Positions 4,697-6,673 of a stretch of 6,673 nucleotides of DNA are shown piece after piece. Origin of the DNA: Propionibacteriaceae bacterium (GTDB lineage: Bacteria; Actinomycetota; Actinomycetes; Propionibacteriales; Propionibacteriaceae); contig JAUNRO010000178.1 of the NCBI GenBank assembly GCA_030544185.1, positions 1 to 6,673 of the forward strand, in the 5' to 3' direction. A program made the position numbers and the translations under genes. Each line of letters begins with the position of its first letter. Position 1 is the first letter of the stretch. Under the pieces are notes generated by a model, which did no database searches, was not told the DNA's origin, and saw only the letters and a list, made by a program, of their open reading frames with translations.

Positions 4697-6673
4697 GTGC
4701 CGGCCGGCGCGACCAGCTCCACCTCCACCGACAACGGCCCCTCGCCCTCGGACCACTCGACGTCGCCGACGAGGCGGCCCACCGCGCGCAGGTCAGACTC
4801 GATGGCCTGCAGGCGCTTCAAGGAGATGGCGTCACCGCGGAACACGGCCCGGCTCGCCTCGGTCTTCATCGAGACCTTGGCCGTGGACTTGGCGCCCCGG
4901 ATGGCGATCAGCGCGTCGGCCAGGTCGCTCAGCAGCGCGACCTCGCCGGCGTCGGTGATCTCGTCGACGGTCGGCCACGCCTGCTGGTGCACCGAGCCCT
5001 CGCGCCACCACGACCAGACCTCCTCGGTCACGAACGGCAGGAACGGCGCGAACAGCCGGAGCTGGATCTCCAGCGCCCCAGCCAGCGCGGCCCGGGCGGA
5101 GGCGGCCGCGTCCTCCCCGGCGGCGCCATAGGCGCGCTCCTTCACCAGCTCCAGATAGTCGTCACAGAACGACCAGAAGAACGTCTCGGTCGCCTCGAGC
5201 GCCGCCGAATAGTCGAACGACTCGAACGCCCGGGTCGCCGCGACGACGACGTTGCGCAGCCCAGCCAGCAGGGCCCGGTCGGCGGGATCGGTGACGGCAC
5301 CGCCGAGCGCATCGCCCGACATCCCCAGCACGAACTTCGACGCATTCAGGATCTTGGTCGCCAGGCGGCGGCCGACCTTCATCTGGGTCTCGTCGAACGG
5401 CGAGTCAGTGCCCGGACGCGCCATCGCCGCGCGCCAGCGCACCGCGTCAGCGCCGAACTTCTCCAGGATCTCGGTCGGCACGACCACGTTGCCCTTGGAC
5501 TTCGACATCTTCTTTCGGTCCGGATCGACCACGAAGCCCGAGATCGTCGCCCGCTTCCACGGGACGCTGTCGAACTCGAAGTGGGAGCGCACGACGCGCG
5601 AGAACAACCAGGTCCGGATGATGTCGTGCGCCTGCGGCGCCAGGTCCATCGGGAAGGTCGCGGCGAACAGCTCCGGATCACGCTCCCAGCCACAGGCGAT
5701 CTGGGGGGTCAACGACGAGGTCGCCCAGGTGTCCATGACATCGGGATCGCCGGTGAAACCGCCCGGCTGGTCGCGCTGCGACTCCGCGTACCCCTGGGGA
5801 ACATCGGTCGACGGATCGACCGGCAGGGCCTCCTCGCCCGGCACGATCGGGGAGTCGTAGTCGGGCTCGCCGTCCGCGGACACTGCGTACCACACCGGGA
5901 AGGGCACCCCGAAGAACCGCTGCCGCGAGATCAGCCAGTCGCCGTTGAGCCCGGAGACCCAGTTCTCATAGCGGTGGCGCATGTGCTCCGGCACCCACTC
6001 GATCTCCCCGCCACGCTTGAGCAGATCCTCCTTGAGGGCCTCGTCGCGCCCGCCATTGCGGATATACCACTGCCGGGTCGACACGATCTCCAGCGGCTTG
6101 TCGCCCTTCTCGAAGAAGTTCGCCTTGCGCTGGGTGGCCGTCGGTTCCCCGGCCAGATCGCGGAGAACGTCGTCTTGCCCGCCAACTCCGCGTACGCCGC
6201 CGAATCCGCCAACCACTCCGGAGTCTCGCGGTGCAGGCGGCCGTCGCGGCCGACCACGGTCCGGGTCGGCAGCTGCAGCTCGCGCCACCACTGGATATCG
6301 GTCTGATCGCCGAACGTGCAGCACATCGCGATGCCCGCACCCTTGTCCATCTCGGCGGCCGGGTGCGCCAGGACGGGCAGCTCGACGCCGAACACCGGCG
6401 AGGTCACCGTCCGCCCGAACAGCGGCTGATAGCGCTCGTCGTCGGGATGCGCGATCAGCGCACAGCAGGCCGCGAGCAGCTCGGGCCGGGTCGTCTCGAT
6501 GAACACCTTGCGGCCCTCGACCGGGGAGCCGGCAGGCAGTGCGAGGTCCTCGGTGAGGTGAAAGCTCACCCGGTGATAGGCGCCGGGATAGTCCCGCGCC
6601 TCCAGCTCGGCCTGGGCGACCGCGGTCTGGAACGTCACGTCCCACATGGTCGGGGCCTCCGACAGGTAGGCCT
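4693..6673 (-). pseudogene. valS: valS, valine-tRNA ligase: 5' end outside the window, reading frame broken near 6160
   Basis: Class I valyl-tRNA synthetase, which charges tRNA-Val in the cytoplasm. The gene enters from beyond 6673, so about 200 N-terminal residues with the HIGH motif are not seen. From 6671 to about 6161 one frame gives the editing (CP1) domain: WDVTFQTAVAQAELE, ETTRPEL, DKGAGIAMCCTFGD, WWRELQLPTR, ending in AGKTTFSA. From about 6159 to the stop at 4693 a different frame continues with DLAGEPTATQRKANFFEKGD, RQWYIRNGGRDEAL, NGDWLISRQRFFG, VMDTWATSSL, MDLAPQAHDIIRTWLFS, the catalytic KMSKS loop (5497-5511) and the anticodon-binding region from QMKVGRRLATKILNASKF on. These motifs match the short ValS of Streptomyces and relatives. 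Compared with that family, about 12 residues between FSA and DLAGEP are absent and the frame changes, which suggests a loss near 37 nt. All else looks intact, so an error or a recent lesion is likely; no single frame encodes the ligase as given. Confidence 0.88.
6157..6161 (-). other. Frame-change junction in valS
   Basis: On the coding strand the bases read TCC-GCG-ATC-TGG in the upstream frame and GAT-CTG-GCC-GGG in the downstream frame. GCG (6161-6159) is the last codon fitting the upstream part of ValS and GAT (6159-6157) the first fitting the downstream part; they share one G. The upstream frame runs on without homology to a stop ending at 5931. Confidence 0.8.

Follow-up and report, generated by a model that had tools for sequence, protein, structure and literature searches.

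The valyl-tRNA synthetase (ValRS) gene valS in the window, the whole 6,673-base stretch of DNA analyzed, lacks 37 nt at a single point compared with all measurable relatives, and its reading frame changes there (minus strand, 6157-6162). The gap is probably an assembly or sequencing error in the sequence record, the valS of the organism itself being intact, ordinary, and in a single frame.

The Two valS Pieces

Most of valS lies within the window on the minus strand as two pieces that match the 874-residue protein P0001 in the same order. Piece 1 (6159..6671) is the connective/editing region; its 170-171 residues lie in one frame that continues past the window end, and 170 of them aligned with P0001 residues 205-374 at 96% identity. 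Piece 2 (4693..6159) holds the catalytic core with its MSKSK motif and the anticodon-binding domain, 488 residues and a stop in the other frame, and was 91% identical to P0001 residues 388-873 (486 residues). P0001 was the best of 120 listed proteins among 7,998 scored candidates from a database clustered at 90% identity, where a closer sequence may hide within a cluster, and the best named matches of piece 2 were mostly from Propionibacteriaceae. A sequence-only reading had placed the editing domain up to GKTTFSA in one frame and the remainder from DLAGEP in another. This was confirmed, as the minus-strand frame 6671-6159 ended in GKTTFS(A), the frame 6159-4693 started with DLAGEP, and the switch was located at 6159-6162.

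The upstream frame was stop-free from 6671 to the junction and the downstream frame, which had no ValS match in its portion before 6159, stayed open between 6672 and its stop codon (4695-4693). In their own frames, G+C by codon position was 0.69/0.51/0.92 (6671-6162) and 0.67/0.48/0.93 (6159-4696), and it fell out of register when either frame was extended past the junction. Because this pattern changes frame at the junction, coding passes from one frame to the other there, and the frame pattern is not due to chance.

With regard to the components of a functional ValRS, piece 2 carried both the catalytic core (PF00133, 140.1 bits, cut-off 22.7) and the anticodon-binding domain (PF08264, 98.8 bits, cut-off 25.1), and the sole Pfam match of piece 1 was PF13603 at 20.4 bits, below its cut-off of 25. 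One uninterrupted reading frame was lacking, with the frame change at 6159-6162 and the first stop of the upstream frame at 5933-5931. Across the 1.98 kb of valS that the window covers, no second frame lesion was found, which upholds for this part of the gene the earlier statement that other lesions are absent; about 204 N-terminal residues (counted on P0001) lie beyond the window end.

Size of the Gap in Relatives

The loss had been estimated beforehand at roughly 37 nt, with alignment to close relatives as the means to size it, and both comparisons made here returned that figure. A blastn alignment of window positions 4706-6673 with the closest relative locus found (L081, whose gene is also the one in L111 of genome G077, with 91% protein identity over piece 2) was 2,005 columns long and contained a single gap, of 37 positions. 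The alignment with L082/L112 (G078) likewise had 37 gap positions, in two openings, and the more distant L083/L113 (G076) gave five openings and 50 gap positions in 2,009 columns, so that further length differences arise with distance. From the last codon of piece 1 to the first codon of piece 2, the distance was 39 nt in 119 of the 121 overlapping relative loci (105 distinct sequences among those 119) versus 2 nt in the window. The other two loci, L066 and L075, had no piece 1 match and were unmeasurable as their sequence starts too late; the L066 match begins downstream and the segment in L075 is nonetheless intact. None of the 119 measurable loci shared the junction spacing of the window, and relatives with the same junction in a single open frame, named earlier as a possible refutation of a gap, were thus not encountered among them.

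Piece spacing was also constant in the 110 of the 120 listed proteins that fit an anchor motif, the remaining ten lying outside it. At the locus level, the anchor motif missed 12 of 80 loci, of which 11 contained the segment and the twelfth was L066. When 198 family genomes were searched at the DNA level, 173 gave a match, and among the matches listed, seven near-full-length single-piece alignments (G078, G076, G015, G160, G119, G124, and G116) had a genome sequence 37 nt longer than the window, with the same 37-nt difference given by two listed pieces in G077. Many other listed rows started at query base 86-90, at most about 5 bases before the junction, without the 37-nt gap; these probably reflect the alignment sliding over an imperfect repeat and not the same junction, in agreement with the measurable loci. 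The 25-nt junction string had no exact match in viral_contigs. Displacement of the segment to elsewhere in the window was rejected, as a relaxed motif found in L081, L082, and L083 was absent from all six frames of the window.

The Lost Helix

In P0001 numbering, the window lacks the 12 residues R376-G387 plus one additional base. The segment between the two pieces comprised 13 codons with no stop in any of the 105 distinct sequences, within which V (105/105), L (104/105), and G (103/105) were conserved. A helix of about 12 residues between the two motifs had been proposed from the sequence, and the structural comparisons agreed with this: the solved valyl-tRNA synthetase 1gax, from Thermus thermophilus, aligned without gaps across the lost residues, and the AlphaFold model of P0001 placed them within helix 372-386 and one residue beyond. 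The model was poor overall (mean pLDDT 61.4, pTM 0.37, 26 sequences) and locally confident over this helix (block means 80 and 91), the sole part of it that was used. The helix leading from the editing domain back to the catalytic domain of a functional ValRS is 12 residues short in the window, residues that are present in all 105 distinct relatives. ValRS is an essential enzyme and the lost residues belong to a conserved helix, so a cell that had no other valS should not grow.

Gene Neighborhood

On the plus strand, the window also contains a partial clpP (3' end only), a second clpP, clpX, an FMN-reductase-like gene (3052-3588), and a NAD-dependent epimerase-like gene (3659-4696), with a MarR-like regulator gene on the minus strand (2495-2926). 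The gene order clpP-clpP-clpX-MarR-FMN reductase followed by valS was common to the window and G076 (L113), the order in G077 (L111) matched from the end of the second clpP onward, and the 12,240-base contig of G078 (L112) had valS alone in common with the window. Protein alignments of these neighbors to congeners were at or near full length, with ClpX aligned over 430/430 residues at 94% identity without gaps to both L111 and L113, MarR gap-free over 142/144 (L111) and 135/144 (L113) residues, FMN reductase gap-free over 173/178 and 178/178 residues (L111 and L113), the second ClpP over 229/229 residues with 5 gap positions (L113), and the partial ClpP over 111/111 residues (L113). A chimeric contig was rejected, with no sign of one within the window: the gene order was common to congeners and valS aligned on both sides of the junction in G076, G077, and G078.

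Compared with G076 and G077, the order was the same as far as the FMN reductase, differed in the interval after it, and agreed once more at valS. The epimerase-like gene had no match in the stretches from these two congeners (L113 and L111), and other open frames occupied its position in L113; window positions 3590-4700 are a variable spot in the clpX to valS interval. The MarR-like and FMN-reductase-like genes are divergent (2495-3588) and were both present in the G076 and G077 stretches, and they plausibly form a small redox-response pair.

Selection and Copy Number

Against L081, L082, and L083, dN/dS was 0.043, 0.033, and 0.140 for piece 1 and 0.101, 0.103, and 0.108 for piece 2, compared with 0.068 (L081-L082) and 0.133 (L081-L083) between the relatives themselves. 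Judging from these ratios (0.03-0.14 against three congeners), both valS pieces are under purifying selection.

Each of the three nearest genomes (G076-G078) had one strong ValS match with an open frame of 892-902 residues, and their remaining ValS matches, at 30-37% identity, are presumably related synthetases. A ValS match of some strength was found in 196 of the 198 family genomes. In G117, two strong matches occurred among the matches listed, on contigs C300 and C471 (71% and 72% identity to piece 2), representing either a genuine additional gene copy or an assembly of mixed origin.

Cause of the Gap

Technical frameshifts and gaps occur in draft or metagenome assemblies, and the window resembles such cases in having one lesion that stands alone in an essential gene well preserved elsewhere, differing from a one-base homopolymer slip in the loss of 37 nt. 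The analysis showed a loss of 37 nt that no measurable relative shares and undamaged flanks under selection; the technical cause is inferred. The 37 nt would have dropped out of a draft or metagenome contig through an incorrect join, faulty gap closure, or a poor local consensus, and the living organism would carry the whole valS in one frame. The wholeness of the organism's valS is argued from an enzyme that is essential and seemingly single copy in the nearest relatives, flanks that are under selection, and no other visible frame lesion; the neighboring genes, aligned at or near full length to congeners, also count in favor of a record error. A technical interruption of valS is shown to be possible by L055 (Auraticoccus cholistanensis), one of the 121 loci, in which 29 N at 6130-6158 (a wrongly sized scaffold gap or a masked stretch) separate sides in different frames and whose genome yields the same two valS pieces.

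Several observations count against the record error. The valS alignment was unbroken in the other 120 relative loci, 115 of the 121 spanning from before residue 60 to beyond residue 800 of P0001 and the other six falling short seemingly at record ends; with no break besides the N run of L055, such errors would be uncommon in these records. A hairpin-driven loss was rejected, as the 60-mers around the segment were not unusually stable in three congeners (46-88% of 60-mers in the surrounding region were at least as stable as the lost stretch), and thus nothing indicates an error caused by a hairpin. By comparison with L082, the junction had 2-3 nt of exact microhomology, which gave no pointer to a typical k-mer collapse.

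Of the causes offered by the sequence-only reading, error and a recent mutation both stood as candidates, with error the likelier, and recoding was strongly disfavored. Alternatively, the sampled cell or strain may really have lost the 37 bp very recently, the loss being either lethal and caught in passing (in dying cells or as a minor variant) or tolerated by means of another ValRS gene; such a deletion would give the same picture and is an unlikely but serious candidate. Its recency would account for the lack of other decay, and the imperfect CTCCG(G)C repeat at both ends of the lost stretch in relatives would suit slippage, to which the 2-3 nt of microhomology within this repeat may also be fitted although they are too short as proof. 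However, each of the three nearest genomes has only one valS, and a lethal variant should not turn into the consensus of a contig. The out-of-frame lesion in a conserved gene could also mark a valS pseudogene, redundant and in decay, whose host relies on a different, working ValRS, and the two strong matches in G117 make two copies at least possible in the family; this reading is scarcely credible against dN/dS values of 0.03-0.14 on both sides of the junction, the absence of further frame lesions in the window's valS, and a neighborhood common to congeners.

Recoding, by which a programmed -1 frameshift or ribosome hopping would make a working ValRS from the printed sequence, gains from the geometry of the junction, where a -1 shift after codon 6161-6159 would join the two frames. 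The resulting protein would nonetheless be 12 residues short, which bears out the earlier remark that a plain frameshift does not restore the helix, and the helix to which these residues belong was retained in all 105 distinct relatives measured. Ribosome hopping only passes over bases and has no means of providing missing ones. Of the features of a programmed -1 frameshift, neither a slippery X XXY YYZ heptamer (window 6101-6300) nor a frame change conserved in relatives (the junction occurred in 0 of 119 measurable loci) was found. Recoding was accordingly rejected and is very improbable, as there is no shifty heptamer in 6101-6300 and a frameshift leaves the 12 residues missing. A ValRS working without the helix, either through a novel recoding that joins the frames or as a split enzyme, broken where the editing domain ends, whose two pieces are translated separately and then assemble, is given almost no weight. 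Among the literature titles listed, none dealt directly with a broken bacterial valS.

Implications of the valS Gap

With its pieces at 96% and 91% identity to P0001 in the same order, in a neighborhood common to G076 and partly to G077, the gene is like other valS of the Propionibacteriaceae and differs from them in the 37 nt missing at one point and the broken frame. No biological novelty was found in the valS gap. An isolated out-of-frame gap in an essential and well-conserved gene should, as a caution, be treated as an error of the record until reads show otherwise. If the gap were real in a viable cell, the organism would have a hidden second ValRS or a novel means of rebuilding the protein.
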